64,000 bases of DNA, taken from the NCBI GenBank assembly GCA_021904315.1, contig CM038918.1, positions 2,185,349 through 2,249,348 of the forward strand, read 5' to 3'. A program made the translations under genes and the position numbers. The DNA is from Sphagnum magellanicum. Its lineage: Eukaryota > Streptophyta > Sphagnopsida > Sphagnales > Sphagnaceae. Of this stretch, positions 1 to 47,182 are shown one piece after another. Within the stretch, counting starts at the first letter, position 1; every line of letters begins with the position of its first letter. Below the pieces are notes generated by a model. The model was not told the origin of the DNA, made no database searches, and was given only the letters and a program-made list of their open reading frames with translations.

Positions 1-330
1 ACCCTACTCGTACTTAAGTGGGTTTGAGAAGAAAATTTTAGTTACATGTCTTTGGTCCCAAACAAAGGAAAAGTCAATGATATATTCCAATTTGAACTAT
101 TTGTCATGACGTGTAGTGTCGTGACGTATGGTGTTGTAAAGGTGTAAATCCATAGTAAACTCTATTAAATAAAAAGACTAAAACTAATCAAAGGTAGAAA
201 CTAATCAACTAGAAAAAGAAATGCACTCACATATATATACAATGCACAAGAAGAGGCTGAGATGAAATTCTCATGTATCCCCCCTTGCCAGATTTGAGCC
301 GGGAAAAGCGTGGAATGGTCTAAGTAGAAA

Positions 331-726
331 TCAAGGTGCTGCAAATAAACGTGATGAACAATACCAAATGCTGGTGGGAACTTGAGTGAGCTTCGACTTG
401 AGGCAAAATAGATGGTATCCACCATTATAATTATCGCAAAGCAGCATCTGATCAGCATCGTTTGTCCTTTGACATATTTGACATGGATAGTCAAGTGGAG
501 AAATCCAAGTCGACATGATGATGGTAGGATTTAAGTTCTGTAGGTGGCAGGGCGCACAATTTTTGGAATGATCCTGGATTGTGAATCCGTTAGTTCCTTG
601 CAACTCCAACACACCTAAAGGCCTGATCGCCTTAATCCTCAAAATAGTGCGACCGGAAGAAGTGTCTAGAGTATCATTAGGTTGTTGCTGGAGATACACA
701 AAGTCACCAACATCAAATTGTCTCAC
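331..726 (-). pseudogene. C-terminal PHD finger after the integrase
   Basis: An open frame of 131 codons continues the polyprotein: RQFDVGDFVYLQQQ (integrase C-terminal SH3-like part), then a PHD finger at residues 82-126 (349-483). The Cys4-His-Cys3 ligands are C82, C85, C97, position 100 (Cys to Tyr), H105, C108, C123 and position 126 (Cys to Arg), with the usual Trp (W121) two residues before C7. Six of eight ligands remain. PHD fingers read histone H3 tails, commonly H3K4 methylation state. In this position a reader could guide integration, as chromodomains do in chromoviruses; that role is inference. Confidence 0.8.
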
Positions 727-789: not shown

Positions 790-1775
790 GGACAAGTTCT
801 TCATGGCCATGGGCATAACCTTCTTGAATAGGCAGCCTTTTCTATGATGACCCTAGCCCAAGTGGTTGGGAAGTTTAAATCCACAACTTGGTCCATTTGA
901 GAAACAATGAAAGAGGGTGGATGTCTCCCAAAAAGTAGAAAGTAAGGAAAGAAATGAGACAAAGAGGTGTGTTTGAACATCCTATAACCCATGGCGATGT
1001 AAGGTAGAGCCAAATCGTAATCCTTTTTGTTCCTAATGAGGCAAATCTTTCAAAGTCCTTTCTTGTATGTCTAAACCATCCTCTCTGCAAGGCCATGAGC
1101 TTGGGGATGATCCTTTGAAGTTCAACGATGGTCAATGAGAGCATGGTCAAGTAGGTCCTTAAATTCTCCTTTGAATTTTAATCCTTGATCAGTAAGGCAC
1201 TTAGCATAAGCCCCAAACCTATTTAAGACTTGTTGTAAGAAAACATGGTTGGTGCTGTGTGATGACTTGTTCGGCACGCAACAAGCTCAACCCACTTTGA
1301 AAAATGTTCGATTGATAATCATGATGTAGACATTACCCCTGGAGGTCTATGATAACTTTCCAGCTAAATCACATGACCAACAATAGAACATGCCTTGAAT
1401 AGGGAGTGGAGAAAGCGTGAGCTGTCGAAAAGAAAAGGAAGTTTTCACTTTATCACATTGTTCACACCTAGCAATGATTTTTCGGACTTAAACATACATA
1501 CCTCTCCAATGGTAATGAAGAGCGAGAAAGCTATAAGTACGCTTAACTCCAAAGTGTCCAAACTTCGAATATACCTTTTAAATAAAACCAGGCCGTTCAT
1601 GTGGTGGAGGAACCACTTTGTCTCCTTGTGGTAAACATGAGACGAGGTGATTATCCCTCCATGAGTATCGTTTGGACCACTGTTGTATGCGATCCCGATG
1701 ATTTGATGTAACTTGGGGAAGGTATTCCCCATGTTGAAGAAACCTCAAAGTGTCCAAGTCTTCCCATATATCCAC
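790..1775 (-). pseudogene. Integrase domain of the gypsy element
   Basis: The N-terminal HHCC zinc finger is readable at about 1450-1605 (FGHFGVKRTYSFLALHYHW then ARCEQCDK). The catalytic core keeps all three acids: D in WSCDLAG (about 1360-1375), D in LTDQG (about 1180-1195) and E in PQAHGLAE (about 1078-1110). The core end (ALPYIAMGYRMFKHTSLSH, FGRHPPSF) follows at 801-1013. The upstream stretch 1578-1775 is the RNase H-integrase linker. Stops and frameshifts separate the blocks. Confidence 0.85.
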
Positions 1776-1959: not shown

Positions 1960-2494
1960 AACTCATACTCCTAAAGTAGAAACACCCAACAAGCTAATTT
2001 ACCAATAAGTTTGTTATTGGTCATTAACCACTTGATAGGTTGGTGGTCGATATATAAAATGAATTCGATGCCATAAAGATAGGGCCTAAAATGTATGACG
2101 ACCCATACAATAGTAAGACACTCCCCCTCATATGAAAAGTAGTTGCTTTTAGTTTTGTTGTTGCTTCGGAATGCATAGGGGATAACATATTCCTTGCTTT
2201 CTTCATCAAGTTGGCCAAGAATAGCACCAATACCAAGAACATTCCAATGAGTTGTAGAATGAAAACCTTGTTGAAATCATGTCTTCTCAGAATGGGGAAC
2301 TTTGAAAGCTTTTCCTTGAGTGTGTCGAAAGCTTCCTGAGCCTCTTCATTCCATGTCCAAACAACATCCTTTTTTAACAATGCATAGAGAGAATGATCAA
2401 TAGTACTAAAGTCTTGGACATAAATCCTATAGTAATTACATAGTCCGATGAAGTTGTGCAAAGTGTGAACATCAGTAGGATTGGGCATCTCCAA
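1960..2494 (-). pseudogene. RNase H / connection domain of the gypsy element
   Basis: The segment at 2024-2494 reads MEMPNPTDVHTLHNFIGLCN and AFDTLKEKLSKFPILRRHDF, the RT-RNase H connection typical of Ty3/gypsy. A frameshift follows, after which RNase H-like blocks continue, ending at EYEFKVIHQPGITHQNA just past the domain. Too damaged to be active. Confidence 0.8.
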
Positions 2495-3250
2495 AATGGC
2501 TACTACTTTGGCCTAATGAGCCATAATACCATTTGGCAAAATTGTATGTCCAAGGTAAACTACCAAGGTGATAGCAAACTCACAGTTTTTAGGATGGATC
2601 TTCATATTGACTTTGTGGAGCCTCTTGAATAATTCCTCAAGATGAGCCAAATGTTATAGGAATCCTTTGCTATGCACTAGGACGTCATCTATGTAGCACT
2701 TTAGAAAATTTGCCCCCTCGAGAACCTAGTCCATGACTCGTTGAAAAAAGATAGGTGCATTATTCAATCCAAAAGGCATCATAAGCCATTCCCACAACTT
2801 GTTGCTTCCATGGAATGTCCTTTTCTTGTGATTCTTCGCAACGAGCAAAATCTAGTTGAAGCCTTGTCGCAGATCCACAATTGTGAAGATGTTTGAGTCT
2901 CCAATGCTATCAAAAAATTCTTCAGGGATGGACATGGGGTACTTGTCCTGAAGTGTAACCAAGTTCAAAGGCCTATAATCCTTGCACATCCTTTTCTTAG
3001 TCCATAATCCAGTTGAATCCTTCTTTGCTGGCATTTTGTAACGATTGTGAAATCAAAACTTGATGGCTAAATGAGACCAGCCTCATGGAACTCTTTGCAT
3101 CTTTCATCTACCAGTTCCCACTCATGTTTGCTCAACCTATGCTTCCTCTGATAGATGGGTGTCCCATCTATAATGTCTATAGAGAACTGCATGGTCTTAC
3201 ACCTACCTAAGTCTTTCATTGAGAATGTGAACACATTTTCATACTTAATT
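2495..3250 (-). pseudogene. Reverse transcriptase domain of the gypsy element
   Basis: The RT copies element RNA into DNA. The domain begins with the linker DLGRCKTMQFSIDI and the fingers YQRKHRLSKHEWELVDERCK (3067-3200). KRMCKDYRPLNLVT and FTIVDLRQGFN follow at 2852-3034. The catalytic YIDDV lies at 2681-2695. After it come HLAHLEELFKRLHKVNMKIH and the thumb. At least one in-frame stop (Q to stop) follows the YIDD block, and frames shift around 2850-3070. Confidence 0.9.
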
Positions 3251-3627
3251 AGCAAGTCTGTGACCTGGTGTCTTTCCTTCTTGGTGAGTTGGTTCCCCAT
3301 AATGAAAGGGTAGTTGGAAACACATGAAATGGAGTTGGAAAGTGTGTTTGAAGAACCTGGTGTATTGGGTTTTCCATTATCCAACTGCATAGATTTGTAG
3401 AAGGTTGTAATTGTTTCTCCAGAAGCTGATGTACCTCTAGGTGTATCAAAAAAAACTTGAGTCAAATTACATGGTAATTCCTCCTCCCCAACATTAAAAG
3501 TGAAATGTAAAGTGTTAAAGATAGGCAAGTGTACTTGGTCGGCATGCCATGTAGTTGCATCACTAGAACTACAAGTTGATTGAATCAATGCTGGTGTTGT
3601 GTACATTTGAAAGAGTACACATGTTAC

Positions 3628-4576
3628 CAACAACCATGTAAGGGAGTTCAGGTCCATGCTTCTCCCCAGTAGAGTGTTACGCTTTAATCTAGTTACCTTA
3701 ATGTGACTAATAGTGCCAGTTTGGAACCCCACAACCCTTTTTTTTTCTTCTGGGTTTGGTTCATCCCAAGTGGTTGAAATATGACAATACACCAGACCTG
3801 GTCCATCTCCCTACAAGGTGTGTGCTCCTAGGAAGGAAACAAAGGTGGGCCAAGCACCTCTTTCTTTTCCTATTATGTTCGCAAGAAACCAAGGAGGTTT
3901 ATTTTGCCTTGTAATTGGTTGGCAAGAGCTTTAATCATCCAATATGTGAGAAACCTGCAAGTTGGGGTTTCTGATGGTGTATCTCAGAGCTAACTGCAGA
4001 ACTGAGAGTGGTGCAAGGTTGGTCCACCAATTGCATAGCCGATGCGCATATGAACCGCATTGTGTCGCATCAAATAGGAACGACTTTCCAAAGTAATGTT
4101 TAATCGGTGTGTAGTGCTCCTAGCTTTCTCCCTCTAGTGAAACTCAGCAAGGGTGTTTTTAATTACATAACCAAACATAGGAGAAATGGATTAATCCCAT
4201 GTGATCAATCGTACCATGTCCATGAAGAGACTAGATCTTGTGTCATTCAAGCCTTCTCCAAATCTAGTCGCTGAAAATCCTTGACATTCCCAACCTGAAA
4301 TGATGAGGTCCACGGGGCCAAGTAATTCCATATGTTTCCTTTGAATTATTGTATGTTAAAAGGCAAAAAAAAGAAACTAGCCTTCCATGCAGTGGTTGCA
4401 AACTGTTGTGAAAATCTAGTTGTGAGCTCCATCATTCTCAATGCCACCACTTGCCTTGCAACAAGATTAATGTTTACATAGAAAACCCTTCAAACCACCA
4501 TCCTTGACTATGGTAGGGCTTTGAGACTTGTACTAATACCACCAAAGAACTCTAGTAATGTAATCCCTTCTTTAGG
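3628..4576 (-). pseudogene. Cytosine-C5 DNA methyltransferase domain within the pol region
   Basis: About 315 codons carry the C5-methyltransferase motifs in family order. Motif I is TLLEFFGGIS at 4532-4561 (usual form LFDGIG/FGGIGTG). A motif II-like FYVNIN and ARQVVALRMMEL follow. Motif IV is GPVDLIISGWECQGFS at 4271-4318, keeping the catalytic Cys but with Glu in place of Pro in PCQ. Motif VI is VIKNT near 4150-4176 (Glu of ENV now Lys). A motif VIII-like block SYAHRLCNWWTNL lies near 4020-4065. Motifs IX/X, PEEKKRVVGFQTG and LLGRSMDLN, lie in 3628-3755; the LLGRS ending recalls the DNMT3/DRM type. Linear I-to-X order is seen. Several stops and one frameshift make it dead. The domain runs straight into the linker before RT, so it belongs to the element. 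A host gene fragment captured only by this copy is possible but less likely. Confidence 0.8.
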
Positions 4577-5149
4577 CAGTGTCCAGGTGATTAGTTGACG
4601 AAGTATTAGCTTAATCAGTTTGCCATGGCTTTCCATGTTCTCAAAACTAAATAAGCTTTGACCAAGGGCTCATGGGCTGCTTTGAACCTCTGTAAAATCT
4701 CTAGTTTGTGTTAAATGTCAGTAGGAACCACCCTCAAGCTTTTAGTAATTTGGGCATAAGTTGTTTCCTCTTCATCTCCCTCTATCCATTCATGGCTAAC
4801 TTGTTGGATGTAGGAAATAGTGTGTGTTTCCTTGAGCATACAATGGTGAGCCATAGGACTATGGTTCCCATGTAAATTAAGGGGTATGAATCCTAGGTGG
4901 TGGCCACCAATCTCCCAATCCAATCAGTAGTACGCATGCTCGAACTAGTTATCAATTATGAAACCTAGTAGAAACAGGGCTTTTTGCCCAATGAACACAT
5001 CGTAACTAGTGACATTGGTGATCAAACATCTGACATGTAGGCAAAGCTCTTGATCTGTACCTTCATTAAAGTTAAGTGGAATCAAATTCGAGTTCTCCCC
5101 AAGTACCTCCTTTGTGCTCCCACTAGTGGTGCGAATTTGTCATAGATTT

Positions 5150-5464
5150 TCGTAGTTTCAAGTTAAGCATGCCCATCTTCTTGGTGAATTAAACTCTAAG
5201 AATAACTGGTTGGGCACCTATATCAAGAAATACCACTCTGGGTGTATGTCTTCCCACCTAGATTGTTGATTCAATATTGTTGACAATGGCAACTTTAATG
5301 GCGATGGAAGTTCTTTCACTAAACACCACCTTCAGAAATGAATGAGAGACTTTGTGGAGAGAATGGCTATCCATAACGCCTTTGTTGAGTAACAAATCCA
5401 CCAATGACGTGTTCTTAGCTCCCTTTTGATATGTGAATGTAGAATCAGAGGTAGGAGAACCCAC
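5150..5464 (-). pseudogene. Retropepsin-like protease remnant
   Basis: The aspartic protease would cleave the polyprotein. At 5214-5225 the reading gives LDIGAQPVILRV, the retropepsin D-[ST]-G-A site with the middle residue changed to Ile, followed by a hydrophobic strand. It is preceded by the linker VSHSFLKVVFSERTSIAIKV at about 5285-5350. Stops occur before and after the catalytic motif. Order (after the zinc knuckles, before RT) supports the call. Confidence 0.65.
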
Positions 5465-8716: not shown

Positions 8717-9227
8717 TGTTGGTAGAGGTGTAATAACACAAATTCTTTCCAACAATAGCAATGGCAACAACAACAACACCAACAATAATAACACCAACAA
8801 CAACATCAGCAACAACAAAAGAAACCCAAGAACTCAAAGCTAAGAAAAATTTGTCGCTTTCAACATTAAGTAATAAGGAGTAGTTTTTCTAGAATTGAAT
8901 TGCAAAGAAGGAAAGAAAACGTATTGTATGGAAATGGTGGTCGTGTAATAGCTGCCGTGAGCATTTAAAAATCCAGTCTGACTATGGAGGAAACTCTCTC
9001 TGACAAAAGAATTTTAGAAAAACTAATAAGAGAAGGGAAGAGCTTGACCTTTTATATAGTTACCAACAAGCTGAAACCCTAAACAAGCCATAACCCTAAA
9101 ACACCTAATAATGTATAGTAACCTAAGAACGTACATTAACTTTAAGAGCATACATTAACCCTAAAAGGCATGATTGGCATGTTCGTAACCGGCCATCATG
9201 TATGAGGCCATGCATACGAGCATGACA
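8717..9227 (-). repeat. Candidate 5' LTR of the gypsy element
   Basis: On the minus strand the segment starts TGTCATG and ends ACCAACA, giving the usual TG...CA ends. It has a TATA-like box near 9055 and a GTT-rich stretch, and abuts a primer-site-like motif. Length is about 511 bp. The second LTR is not in the window, so the exact ends (plus or minus a few bases) cannot be proven. Confidence 0.5.
9050..9060 (-). promoter_or_regulatory. TATA-like box of the LTR
   Basis: The minus strand reads ACTATATAAAAGG here, about 330 bp upstream of the LTR end. Transcription of the retroelement would start roughly 30 bp downstream. This is inferred from the motif and its position only. Confidence 0.45.
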
Positions 9228-11040
9228 TCTTATCTAATTTTAAAAATAGTTTCCTAATTATGATGTCCTTGAAATTTTTTAAGTAAATTTTTTGTCAAAT
9301 ATTCCTTTTAAAAAAAAGAAAATAATTTAATTTAGTTTTTTGAAGAAAAAAAAACTTTTCCAAATAGATTTTTTAGAGCTTTTGACACTCTTTTCTATAA
9401 ACTTGTCCCCAATTGATGCTAAATAACTAACACATATAGTGCTTAGGTGCCACTTATTCAGAGTGAATTTTAATATCCCTGATTCTTAATGGTTGTCCTT
9501 ATATTTAACAAACAAATTATCGAATCCAAGTTATGGAATTTACCTTAACAATTTTCCCACTGGGTTGAAGTTGCATGGGACTTGACCATCTTGGCCAATT
9601 TATATGGATGCTTTTGTTTGTAACATGGCACCAACAAGTTTCACTTAGATTTACCAAACTTAATTGGTCATGGCCAAATTTCATTTTACCATGGTTAACA
9701 TAATATTTAGTAAGAAGTAGTTTAGCCTAACCCATTTGAAGTTTGGAAGTTATTGTGACATTGAACCTACTACACTACAGGCATTCCAAATTTGGCTAAT
9801 GGGATAATTTGCACTCTTGAGATTTGAGAGTATCTTCCTCACTGTATTGAATTTCAGGCTTTTTTAAAAAATTGGCTAAAGTTAGCCAAATTTCCACTTG
9901 TGCAGGTGGGCTGACTACCAGATGTACTTTAACAACAATAAAATATTTTATTTATTTATTTATTTAATCAGCTCATTCCTGTGCCATTTCCATGATATCC
10001 ACGCCCATGATAAAAGTTCAACATACTAAATTGGAAAAAAAAACACATGGTGGTGTTCACATGGTGAAGCCCAAGTGTATCCTAAAGTTATGCTGGAAAT
10101 GCACTTGACCCTAGAATGCAGGGATACCAAACTTTGGCACATCTATGGGTGCATCACAATGCCTCTACCCTGAAGAGCAGAGCCAACAAAGGTGGAAATT
10201 AGAGATAATTTCACCCCAAAGTTCAAGTTTGGTGAAAGGATGAAGCTAGGTTGCTATTTAGGTCATCATCCATTTCGTCGGATGTAACCCTATGAACACA
10301 TCAATTGTAGTCAGATTGCTCTATGGTAAGCTATCAAGTTGTGATTGCTTTTTGTGTTTTTTTATTGGTGATATTTTGTCAAAACACCAAATTCAAAATT
10401 AAAAAAAAAAAGTGATTTTGGAGGTTTCCAATTGCTATATGTGAGAAGGGGGGGGGAGGGATAATTAAATTAAATCACAAGATTTGTATACTTGGTTTTC
10501 AGTGTGTAGCTAAAATATAGAAGGTTGATTGAAGGTTTTTTAAATTTCATATTTGGTTTATAGCCAAATTTGGCTAAATCTTCCTACAGATGATTGCCAC
10601 TTTTTCTACGTCTTCCTATGGATGATAGCCACTTTGGCTATGAACAAAAATTCCTTAGAAAAAACACTGGATTGCTTTGTCAACGTGGCAAATTATGGTG
10701 TAGTTTCATCATGCTATGCATGCACTCATAAACATAGCCATCAAGATAATGCTTGGGATGACACAATTCCTTGCCAAAGATCAAGTAGATGCTTCAGAAC
10801 CCAAATGGCGAACAAACGAAAGAGATTCGACTTTGGGTGGCCAAAAGACCTCTTTCCAAGTGATCGGTTGGTCCCAAGTGAGTTTCATTTGCCTGCTTTA
10901 AGAATCAATATCATAGTTACTGCCACCCATACCCCCAAAATGAGGCGATTCCTTGCGCAAGTGCTGTAAAAGTGCGGCCATTACTTACCATTGGCCCAAA
11001 CTGACAGATGCTCGGGAAGTCACTTGGACAGAGGATGGTT
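9228..11040. other. AT-rich spacer without recognisable gene
   Basis: No ORF with a recognisable family. There is a TTTA run near 9945-9965 and a poly-G run at 10449-10457. A dispersed repeat copy begins near 10,545 and is listed separately. Confidence 0.5.
10545..10690. repeat. Dispersed repeat, copy 1 (tttggctaaatc family)
   Basis: Contains tagccaaatttggctaaatc, then gatgattgccact and aaaaaacactgg. The same ordered phrases recur near 34.7, 36.2 and 37.7 kb. Noncoding; class unknown. Confidence 0.55.
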
Positions 11041-14019: not shown

Positions 14020-14900
14020 GACACACCTTACATAAAGGGTATTACAAGTTATGTTCAAAGAATGTTTTCCATGAGGCTATCACAAACCAAGTGGATAATC
14101 AAAGCAATATGGAGCTCCAATTCAATTTAGACACATTTAATGCATGTTGTACTCAGGTTCATAAAACAAAATGTTCAATGAATGTGCAATACACCATTAT
14201 AGGTAACCCTAAAATAGTTTGGGCTCCATATCATATCTTTTGAAACTTGGAAAGATATTGTGTAACCCTAACAAAACCTAGAAGGAATGCAATACCCTCA
14301 TTGGGTTACACTATAAGATCATGGGCTGAATTTTTTTGGTCCAAGTTATTAAAGGGGTATTGCTCATGCCTAAAAAGATTCACTAAACATGCAATACCTC
14401 TCTTAGGGTATCCCATAAATACATCGGGCTCCATAACATATCTTTTGACACATGGAAGGGTATTACATAACCCTATGAAAACTAACGAGGAAACCTATAC
14501 CCTCATTAGTTGTATTCTATTATTAAACACCATGGGTTTACACTATTGGAGGGGTATTGTTCAAGGCTAAAACTACTCAATACATCTACAATACCCCTTG
14601 TAGGACATCCCATAAATACATTGGGCTCCATAACATATCTTTCAAAACTTGGAGGGGTATTTCATAGCCCTACCAAAACCGACAAGGAAAGTAATACCCT
14701 ACTTGGGGTATTCAATAAACACCATCGGCTAAATTATTTTGGTTTAGATTATCAAAGTGGTATTGCTAATGGCTAGGAATATTCAATGCACATGCAATAC
14801 CTCTTGTAGGGTATCCCAAAAATCCTTTGGGTTCTATAACATATCTTTTGAAATTTGGAGGGGTATCACATTACCATACCAAAATGTAGAAAGGAAATCA
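14020..14900. repeat. Diverged tandem repeat of about 200 bp
   Basis: The anchor gggctccatatcatatct or gggctccataacatatct starts at 14,221, 14,426, 14,623 and (as gggttctata) 14,829, giving spacings of 205, 197 and 206 bp. Each unit also carries a caatacc...gggtat pair. A partial unit precedes the first anchor. Weak ORFs of 88-107 codons in the array follow the repeat and are not genes. Confidence 0.75.
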
Positions 14901-44740: not shown

Positions 44741-45790
44741 TTACTCGAGCTGGCCATACCAGATGCCCTGAATCTTGACCTCCTTTGGAGCTTTGGATCC
44801 CAGATCCGTATCAGAAGGCTGCAAGCTCTCGAAAACGCCTGCAATTTCGCCTGTCTCTGTGTTGCTCTTGGCAATGCTGAGAGTGATGGTGCCCTGTAGT
44901 GCGGCTGTGTTCTTCTGGTTCTCCTTCGACAGTTCCTCTTCGTCTCCGGCACCTCCAGCAGGCAACGCTACGGCGTTGTCATAACCAGTGGAGCCACCTC
45001 TACCTTTAGGATCCAAGAAAGACGAGCCTCTGTAAGATGGAACCAAAAACTTGCCACTAAATGCGTCTGCCTTGCCTGTCGCCTCAAGCTCCTTGATAGT
45101 AAACAGGAATGGAACTCGCTCGCCTCCTGGAAGTTGCACTGTAACTGCGGCGTAGTCAATCCCGTCCTTCTCCGTGAACTTCACAGAACCATCAGAGCCA
45201 ACGGTAAAGGGGCCCTCAATCTCATCAAGAGTATAAGTGAGACGAGTCATAAGCTTCGTGTTCTGGAACTCCTCACCTCCGGACTTGAACGGAGACTCCG
45301 CCTTGACTGTAAACGATGTAGGCTCTAAGCACAACTTCTTGAGATTATAAGACCCGGCCTTGAACGTCAAGCCTTCAGTAGCAGGAGTTGCCACAATAGG
45401 ACATTGATTGGCAGTCCCGGAGCCCTTAACCTCCAGGTAAGTTTGCCCTTGAATCTCATCGAACGTCAACCTCTTGGGCGTCCCTTCTGCTTGAGCAGAG
45501 GAAGCAACGAGTGCAGTGGTAGCCAGCGCCAGAGCCGCCGCCTTACCAAAAGAAACCGCCTTATTCACAACCGAGCACAGCTGTGCCGCAGTGTCCTCCC
45601 CCAAAGAACACGAAACCTTGCCACAACTCCCGGCCACATTCCGCAACCCGAATGCCGAGCTCACAGAAACACTGGACCTCACATCAGAAGAGCTTAGATT
45701 ACTACTACTACCACTGCAACCGGCTCTCTCTAGCGCGGGTTGCACAAAGCTGCCAGTGACTTTGCACACAGCAGCTACAGAGCTGGCCAT
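44741..45790 (-). CDS. psbO: PsbO, 33-kDa oxygen-evolving enhancer protein 1 precursor
   Basis: The manganese-stabilising extrinsic subunit of photosystem II, acting in the thylakoid lumen. A single uninterrupted exon encodes 349 aa from ATG 45,788-45,790 ([13 protein letters not shown]). The same frame is open for seven more codons upstream but only to a TTG, so the ATG is the start. Residues 1-101 form a bipartite transit peptide: a Ser/Ala/Val-rich stroma-targeting part, then the thylakoid signal with hydrophobic core [15 protein letters not shown] and the AQA cleavage site. Mature protein starts [13 protein letters not shown] and is 248 aa, the family length. Conserved landmarks include [43 protein letters not shown] and the final [10 protein letters not shown]. 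No defect. The absence of introns is notable for a plant nuclear gene. A 40-bp minisatellite lies 116-440 bp upstream of the start. Confidence 0.98.
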
Positions 45791-45905
45791 GGCGCTCGAC
45801 GACTGCGACAAAGAAGTGCACTACGGAAACATTGCAACCGTAACAAAATGTGCTTCTTTGCTCTCTTGGAGAGCCAAGGCAGGAGAAACGAGAGAGACGA
45901 AATCG

Positions 45906-46230
45906 TAGCCATTGATTTTTTATCTCAACGATTATTTTATTTTCGTGGCCATTGATTTATTATCTCATTGATTATTGTATTTTAGTGGCCATTGATTTAT
46001 TGCCTCATCAATTGTTTATTATTTCAATGATAATTTGATTTTCGTGGCCATCGATTAATTATCTCATTGATTCTTTTCTTTTCGTGGCCATCGATTTATG
46101 ATCTCATCGATTCTTTTATTTTCGTGGCCATCGATTTATTATCTCATTGATTCTTTTATTTTCGTGGCCATCGATTTATTATCTCATTGATTCTTTTATT
46201 TTCGTGGCCATTGATTTATTGTCTCCTTTT
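45906..46230. repeat. 40-bp minisatellite upstream of psbO (8 units)
   Basis: Units begin with (t)ggccat(c/t)gattta at about 45,906, 45,946, 45,986, 46,045, 46,085, 46,125, 46,165 and 46,205. Spacing is 40 bp except one 59-bp unit. In psbO orientation each typical unit carries AATCAATGAGATAATAAATC and ends in CGATGGCCA, so a GATAA (I-box-like) core repeats every 40 bp. The last four units are nearly identical. Confidence 0.9.
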
Positions 46231-47182
46231 TTTTAAAAATCGCTAGCTGTGGAGATTAGCCTACTTATCTACTATTTGAACGTACCAGATTGCACCACGC
46301 GAATTTCCCTTCGATTGGGGGGGGGGCTGGGCTGGGCTATCACATGTTTTGTGAGGATTTTGTGTGTGATTATGTGTAATTTTGAAGGGTCTATTTGTCT
46401 TTGAATGCATAATTACAATGTATAATTCTTTTTCAAATAAATTGTAGGGTGTATGATATATCAAACATTTTAAAAGTACATATGCCAATGGAATTGAGTC
46501 ATGTTGGATTTATTTATTTATTTATTTATTTATTTTGCAATTATACATTTAGTGATATATGATTTAAGATGTTTGTTACAAGATTAATTTTTTGAAATAC
46601 TTGATTAAAATTACCAATTTCAATCAAAGATTACACTTTGCAATTCCCAACAGTAGTTCTTAAGGAAATCCCTCCCTACATTATATGTGTGATTTGTCCT
46701 AACTTTGAAGAATTTCACAAGTTAGTCATTTGGAGGTGAAACATCAAATGCAATAATATAGGAGTGGCTTCAAGACATACTAGTCGATTAATTAATTAAT
46801 TAATTTGAAGATTTCATTTCAATGAAAGGCTATTCCCAAATATTTTCAAATATTTTTCATTTCTTTTCATAAAAAAATTGTTCTTTGAAAAAAGTAAATT
46901 TTTTGATATTTTGAGTATTAAAAAAATAATATAATTTATGTCAAAGCCACCAAGATATTATCATATTCAACATGTCATCAAATAGTACACAACATGCTTC
47001 AAGCTTGATATACATTGTACATTATGACAAGAATGAATATTGTGAAACTATTCATTGATCGTGGTCATTGTTTTGGGGGATCTTCCAAAATATGTGAATT
47101 ATAAGATCACCAAATAGTAAATACATATATATATATATATTGATGGATACCATGAATGTATGTTACATATATTAGATGAATA
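46231..47182. other. AT-rich spacer
   Basis: No gene seen. A G-run at 46,317-46,326, tatttatttattta at 46,508-46,533, attaattaattaatt near 46,790, and an (AT)n run near 47,126-47,140. Confidence 0.5.

Follow-up and report, generated by a model that had tools for sequence, protein, structure and literature searches.

The window analysed here, a stretch of 64,000 nucleotides from the moss Sphagnum magellanicum (contig CM038918.1, positions 2,185,349 to 2,249,348), carries on its minus strand, from 9227 to 102, a decayed gypsy-type retrotransposon of ~9.1 kb with a DNMT3-related C5 cytosine methyltransferase (MTase) domain inside its pol gene. When mapped by tblastn with uninterrupted relatives, the element has the order protease, MTase, reverse transcriptase (RT), RNase H, integrase and PHD finger. 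This copy is dead; because of its decay, the MTase domain is split over three reading frames. From the 5′ to the 3′ end of the element, its features are as follows.

9228 to 9231: 5′-side target-site duplication; in the direction of the element it is AAGA, against AATA at the opposite flank (3/4 alike)
8892 to 9227, minus strand: terminal block A, the element 5′ end, starting with TGTC; 75% identity to block A of genomic copy L006
6397 to 7973, minus strand: gag region, broken; its counterpart in L006 is a 541-residue open frame with two CCHC-like knuckles (by eye)
4975 to 5262, minus strand: retropepsin-like protease region (tblastn mapping)
3604 to 4567 (approximate), minus strand: DNMT3-type C5 cytosine MTase domain, motifs I to X, broken (PF00145; tblastn with related proteins P0121 and P0186; profile against the PDB)
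4281 to 4289, minus strand: motif IV catalytic ECQ, Glu replacing the usual Pro (sequence reading)
3070 to 3603, minus strand: linker between MTase and RT, and start of the RT (tblastn)
2540 to 3001, minus strand: RT region (tblastn with P0186, in which RVT_1 spans residues 502-655)
2001 to 2353, minus strand: RNase H (PF17917, E 7.7e-21 on 2001-2276)
850 to 1775, minus strand: broken integrase region comprising a zinc-binding part and the DDE core (tblastn, queries P0269 and P0267; PF17921 and PF00665 in L006)
355 to 483, minus strand: PHD finger at the pol C-terminus (PF00628, E 1.2e-8 on piece 331-774)
279 to 284, minus strand: G-run ahead of block B, resembling a polypurine tract
102 to 278, minus strand: terminal block B, the element 3′ end, finishing with GACA (comparison of the copies' ends)
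98 to 101: 3′-side target-site duplication (flank comparison)

A preliminary description of this DNA had read C5-MTase motifs between a protease and an RT on one strand, and had called for a PF00145 profile search. That search is significant: a stop-free piece of 54 residues (4194-4355, minus strand) matches at E 4.7e-7, scoring 30 bits where the curated cut-off is 22, and tblastn places the motifs where they had been read. In the PDB, the same piece matches HhaI (0.0022) and DNMT3A (0.046). DNMT3 is the best match among the C5-MTase families, as judged by profile and fold rankings rather than by a tree, and the domain is non-permuted. When the profile was ranked against the PDB, DNMT3 and DRM came nearest, DNMT2-type chains were far weaker, and none of the 58 rows was a DNMT1- or CMT-labelled chain. 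This ranking bears on the idea that the enzyme modifies RNA, either genomic RNA or the primer tRNA, and thereby promotes reverse transcription or stability. RNA methylation is raised for LINE elements of Symbiodinium in the main text of De Mendoza et al. (2018; PMC5890265), but the weakness of the DNMT2-type matches makes such a role improbable here.

The family was sought in the genome (438,994,042 bases) with a 247-residue query comprising the MTase C-terminus, the linker and the start of the RT. At least 151 matches were found at E 1e-3 or better, a lower bound because scoring covered 150 of 1038 first-look candidates; 10 of the listed rows start at query residue 10 or later. The MTase segment is present in all 30 of the best-scoring copies fetched, a count to be read with the query itself starting in the MTase C-terminus, and open frames across the query reach 2379 residues. 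In L006, the 541-residue gag lies upstream of a pol in which one native stop-free stretch of 1247 residues holds protease (PF13975, 26.7 bits, under the cut-off of 28.2), MTase (PF00145, 1.2e-8), RT (RVT_1, 2.1e-28) and RNase H (2e-38), while the next piece holds integrase (H2C2, 1.5e-16; rve, 2.1e-12) and the PHD finger (2.2e-12). The gypsy pol domain set with a DDE integrase is thus present, and the gag frame gave no Pfam match of note. Two related proteins agree with this layout, with MTase, RT and RNase H within a single 820-residue frame in P0186, and a protease-like region and MTase within one frame in P0194; PF13975 exceeds its cut-off in P0184 and falls under it in P0194 and P0213, as in L006. 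The preliminary proposal is thus upheld in part: an MTase is embedded in the gypsy-type pol of a land plant, and methylation of the element's own or host DNA is a putative function of it. The uninterrupted frame that the preliminary description had suggested looking for in less decayed copies runs, in L006, from protease to RNase H. It has also been hypothesized that transposon methylases act as an accessory defence against DNA viruses of the host (available text of PMC6338049), but the MTase shares pol with RT and integrase, a position that speaks for a function in the life cycle of the element itself, and we consider defence very improbable.

Relatives extend beyond this genome. Three protein searches gave 754, 246 and 310 matches, the listings covering the best 120 per search, and the last search having scored the 7993 candidates that shared most words. 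Named relatives among the listed matches come from Sphagnum compactum (P0148), S. magellanicum (P0267) and the liverwort Calypogeia fissa (P0184 and P0253), and no protein among the best 120 of each search bears the name Klebsormidium. In P0268 an RNase H is followed by the MTase, and in P0269 the MTase is followed by the integrase zinc domain; read together, these place the MTase between RNase H and integrase, that is, in a second pol order. Several proteins carrying JGI names of the type 'site-specific DNA-cytosine methylase' (P0127, P0193, P0199 and others) are fragments of such elements, and anyone surveying bacterial methylases could be led astray by these labels. Could the similarity be due to chance, or to a host MTase gene that inserted into this copy alone, as a domain broken over three frames in the window might suggest? 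Both are refuted by the PF00145 match, the segment in 30/30 fetched copies, the liverwort relatives and the purifying selection described below.

The active site departs from the DNMT3 family at motif IV, where Pro-Cys is absent and Glu precedes the catalytic Cys at 30/30 genomic loci, the window copy included. Of these loci, 25 show WEC in frame with the query (in one of them a stop follows), two have the Trp codon turned into a stop, and three are in a shifted frame. The replacement of PCQ by ECQ, first seen in the window copy alone, is thus real and family-wide. A motif expression matched 21 of 185 proteins gathered in the first two protein searches, 20 with ECQ and one with KCQ. GWEC also occurs in a pair of liverwort proteins and in another, divergent pair with the other domain order, and is near-invariant in the relatives' alignment, P0268 reading GWECS. 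The window copy has VIKNT at motif VI and AHRLC at motif VIII (by eye), where most relatives have ENT and HRLR, and the catalytic Cys, the motif VI Glu and the motif VIII Arg are retained even in divergent relatives.

Fungal RID/Masc1 is likewise an MTase homologue with an atypical catalytic motif, linked to genome defence, and was considered as a precedent for ECQ. It was rejected, since RID keeps PCQ and varies motif VI instead (EQT or EET, in the available text of PMC6709928), whereas the moss family changes motif IV and has ENT at motif VI. A prokaryotic or viral source is likewise unsupported: contig scans with P0039 and A2 gave 1, 39 and 13 stretches, none of them confirmed, while the pattern GWECQGFS had no match in viral contigs and one in genome contigs, outside any methyltransferase open reading frame, and a GWECQDLS-type pattern had none among viral contigs.

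Selection on the domain was estimated from 14 of the 30 loci, those with no more than three stops from MTase to RNase H; the 16 dropped include the window copy. The median ratio of nonsynonymous to synonymous substitution rates (dN/dS), taken over 91 non-independent pairs and counting those with dS > 0.05, is 0.23 for the MTase (83 pairs), 0.30 for RT-RNase H (77) and 0.48 for the linker (62). Over 200 draws of seven disjoint pairs, the corresponding ratios of proportions of differences (pN/pS) are 0.24, 0.37 and 0.48. The MTase is under purifying selection, held at least as firmly as the RT, which shows that it is useful to the element without saying for what, and selection seems to have kept the altered active-site motif along with the rest. 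Purifying selection alone does not prove catalysis, and the main competing explanation is that the MTase fold has been kept while catalytically dead, as a DNA- or partner-binding module that, like DNMT3L or DRM3, would aid integration or recruit or titrate host methyltransferases. The Glu in place of Pro in all 30 copies and in divergent relatives is in keeping with this idea. A pure scaffold, however, would have no need of the catalytic Cys, the motif VI Glu and the motif VIII Arg that divergent relatives keep; DNMT3L has lost such catalytic residues. We regard a dead fold as unlikely, though as a serious contender.

At the C-terminus of pol, the C4HC3 pattern of the PHD finger is complete in 15 of 18 copies; it is incomplete in L024 and the window copy, and L009 was represented by a piece unsuitably placed for scoring. 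The finger is closest to those of WSTF, KMT2D, CHD4 and the KDM5 type, several of which read unmodified H3K4. DNMT3A, too, pairs its MTase with a PHD-like histone reader, the ADD domain, which steers it to a chromatin type. DNMT3A/DNMT3B and plant DRM2 are the best sequence and structure matches of the moss MTase, but they are encoded by genes of the host, have Pro-Cys at motif IV and, in the case of DRM, are circularly permuted, while the moss protein has GWECQ and is part of a pol polyprotein.

The closest precedent is KnitGypsy-Dnmt3 of the alga Klebsormidium nitens, in which a Dnmt3 in a gypsy pol has Ka/Ks < 0.2 and a DIRS-like repeat arrangement, according to the main text of PMC5890265. 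It is a close match in kind, sharing with the moss family a non-permuted DNMT3-related MTase in the pol open reading frame, purifying selection and the repeats. By that description, the family studied here differs in its land-plant hosts, its PHD finger (the word PHD is absent from the paper's main text) and perhaps GWEC. SymbioDIRS-Dnmt3 and SymbioLINE-Dnmt of Symbiodinium are also retrotransposon-borne DNMTs, the former with A-coding-B-A-B repeats, but they belong to tyrosine-recombinase or LINE elements, and CG methylation by the DIRS type has been shown in yeast (main text of PMC5890265).

To examine the terminal repeats of the moss family, 18 copies were compared at both their 5′ and their 3′ pieces. 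All of them open with block A (310 bp, TGTC...) except L031, in which inverted B and A come first. At the 3′ end, B-A-B is found in seven copies, B-A in one, B in nine and B followed by inverted A in L031. The DIRS-like order A-coding-B-A-B is thus complete in 7/18 (L004, L006, L009, L012, L015, L024 and L025), nine are A-coding-B, one lacks the last B and one is rearranged; none has two full direct long terminal repeats (LTRs) at its integrated ends. These ends are TGTC...GACA, flanked by exact 4-bp target duplications in 14/18 copies (13 by script, L005 by eye); the window copy and L015 agree at 3/4 positions, L007 at 2/4, and C18_1914032 has none at its truncated end. Elements of the DIRS order are not known to make target-site duplications, and in this the moss copies depart from them. 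No tyrosine recombinase (PF00589) was among the Pfam matches of the pieces scanned, the 5′ leader lying outside the scan, and downstream of block A no primer site for a tRNA could be recognised. The rearranged L031, together with L046 and L047 (C10:16163636-16176376), has inverted B and A on the left, an inverted and incomplete A on the right and an exact AATT duplication, and is perhaps an autointegration product.

A G-run stands directly ahead of B in 17/18 copies, the exception being L005. Since B follows it as U3 follows a polypurine tract, a classical LTR would be B-GC-A, and the integrated ends would then fall inside this LTR, at the palindrome GACA-GC-TGTC. All 8/8 copies with a B/A junction have the GC spacer, next to which L024 and L025 show single changes. 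By this logic A-coding-B-A-B is what the usual BA-coding-BA becomes when shifted round by one block, the product to be predicted if a two-LTR circle is opened at B/A. Tandem insertion followed by deletion is disfavoured as its source, because the second A joins the second B at identical bases in 6/7 complete copies (L024 lacks two bases). The split repeats, 4-bp duplications and DDE integrase together suggest integration from circles cut inside the LTR, and we infer from sequence that the integrase acts on such circles; recombination between the two B blocks of the long form explains the A-coding-B copies equally well. The two A blocks are 96.8-100% identical in the seven complete copies, so the family moved recently and is apparently a recently active one.

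Elsewhere in the window, a PsbO gene (photosystem II manganese-stabilising protein; PF01716, 3.2e-99) occupies 44744-45820 on the minus strand in one open frame, and a malectin-like domain (PF12819) is also encoded; together they fit a plant nuclear segment. An array of ~40-bp tandem repeats lies at 45863-46276, and direct repeats with a period of ~200 bp, in 3-4 copies of 70-78% identity, at 14170-14891.

As a whole, these observations are best explained by an active MTase that works on the element's new cDNA or its insertion site, steered by the PHD finger and with catalysis retuned by Glu, a reading to which we give a probability of about 55%. We infer both the activity and the self-methylation from sequence comparison. 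The MTase would travel in the particle with the RT, fold as a DNMT3-like catalytic domain and methylate either the insertion site or the fresh double-stranded cDNA of the element, which is probably a circle; the new copy would thereby come to resemble host chromatin. The element's own new DNA is most likely the target, as has been argued for the DIRS-type MTase (main text of De Mendoza et al., 2018; PMC5890265). The PHD finger may steer the MTase: it would read the histone H3 tail and direct both integrase and MTase to a chromatin type, while Glu next to the catalytic Cys would retune catalysis rather than abolish it. Several points weigh against this reading. The literature searched showed no tested precedent for Glu replacing the motif IV Pro; confidence in the structure model is low beyond about residue 290; the dN/dS copies were picked for few stops; CpG observed/expected is 0.36 in the element against 0.37 in the rest of the window, hence no footprint of self-methylation; and the MTase of KnitGypsy-Dnmt3 gave no methylation in yeast, a result its authors call inconclusive (main text of PMC5890265).

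More tentatively, and doubtful as a whole, the findings could be joined into one history. An old green-lineage gypsy clade, reaching from algae to mosses and liverworts, would have kept a Glu-Cys DNMT3 site while the MTase shifted within pol, so that it precedes RT in bryophytes but separates RNase H from integrase in P0268 and P0269. Its DDE integrase would integrate circular cDNA by cutting at the GACA-GC-TGTC palindrome inside the LTR, one-LTR circles giving A-coding-B and two-LTR circles A-coding-B-A-B, both with 4-bp duplications. An MTase that protected or marked the circle would explain why MTases recur in split-repeat retrotransposons (DIRS, SymbioDIRS, KnitGypsy and the moss family).

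No report of a land-plant methyltransferase retrotransposon was seen among the titles and opening abstract lines listed in the literature searched, most subscription papers being outside its reach; the precedents found are algal. As far as compared, the land-plant hosts, the PHD finger, GWEC, the second pol order (P0268, P0269) and the 4-bp duplications with TGTC...GACA ends are new, the PHD finger and the odd terminal repeats going beyond what the preliminary description had contained. The kind represented by KnitGypsy-Dnmt3 is thereby extended to moss and liverwort. If read rightly, split-repeat ends with a DDE integrase would be an unusual integration route for a gypsy element. The moss family lets one ask whether a Glu-Cys active site works and, since a plant with young copies is at hand, why a parasite should bring along the very mark by which parasites are usually silenced.
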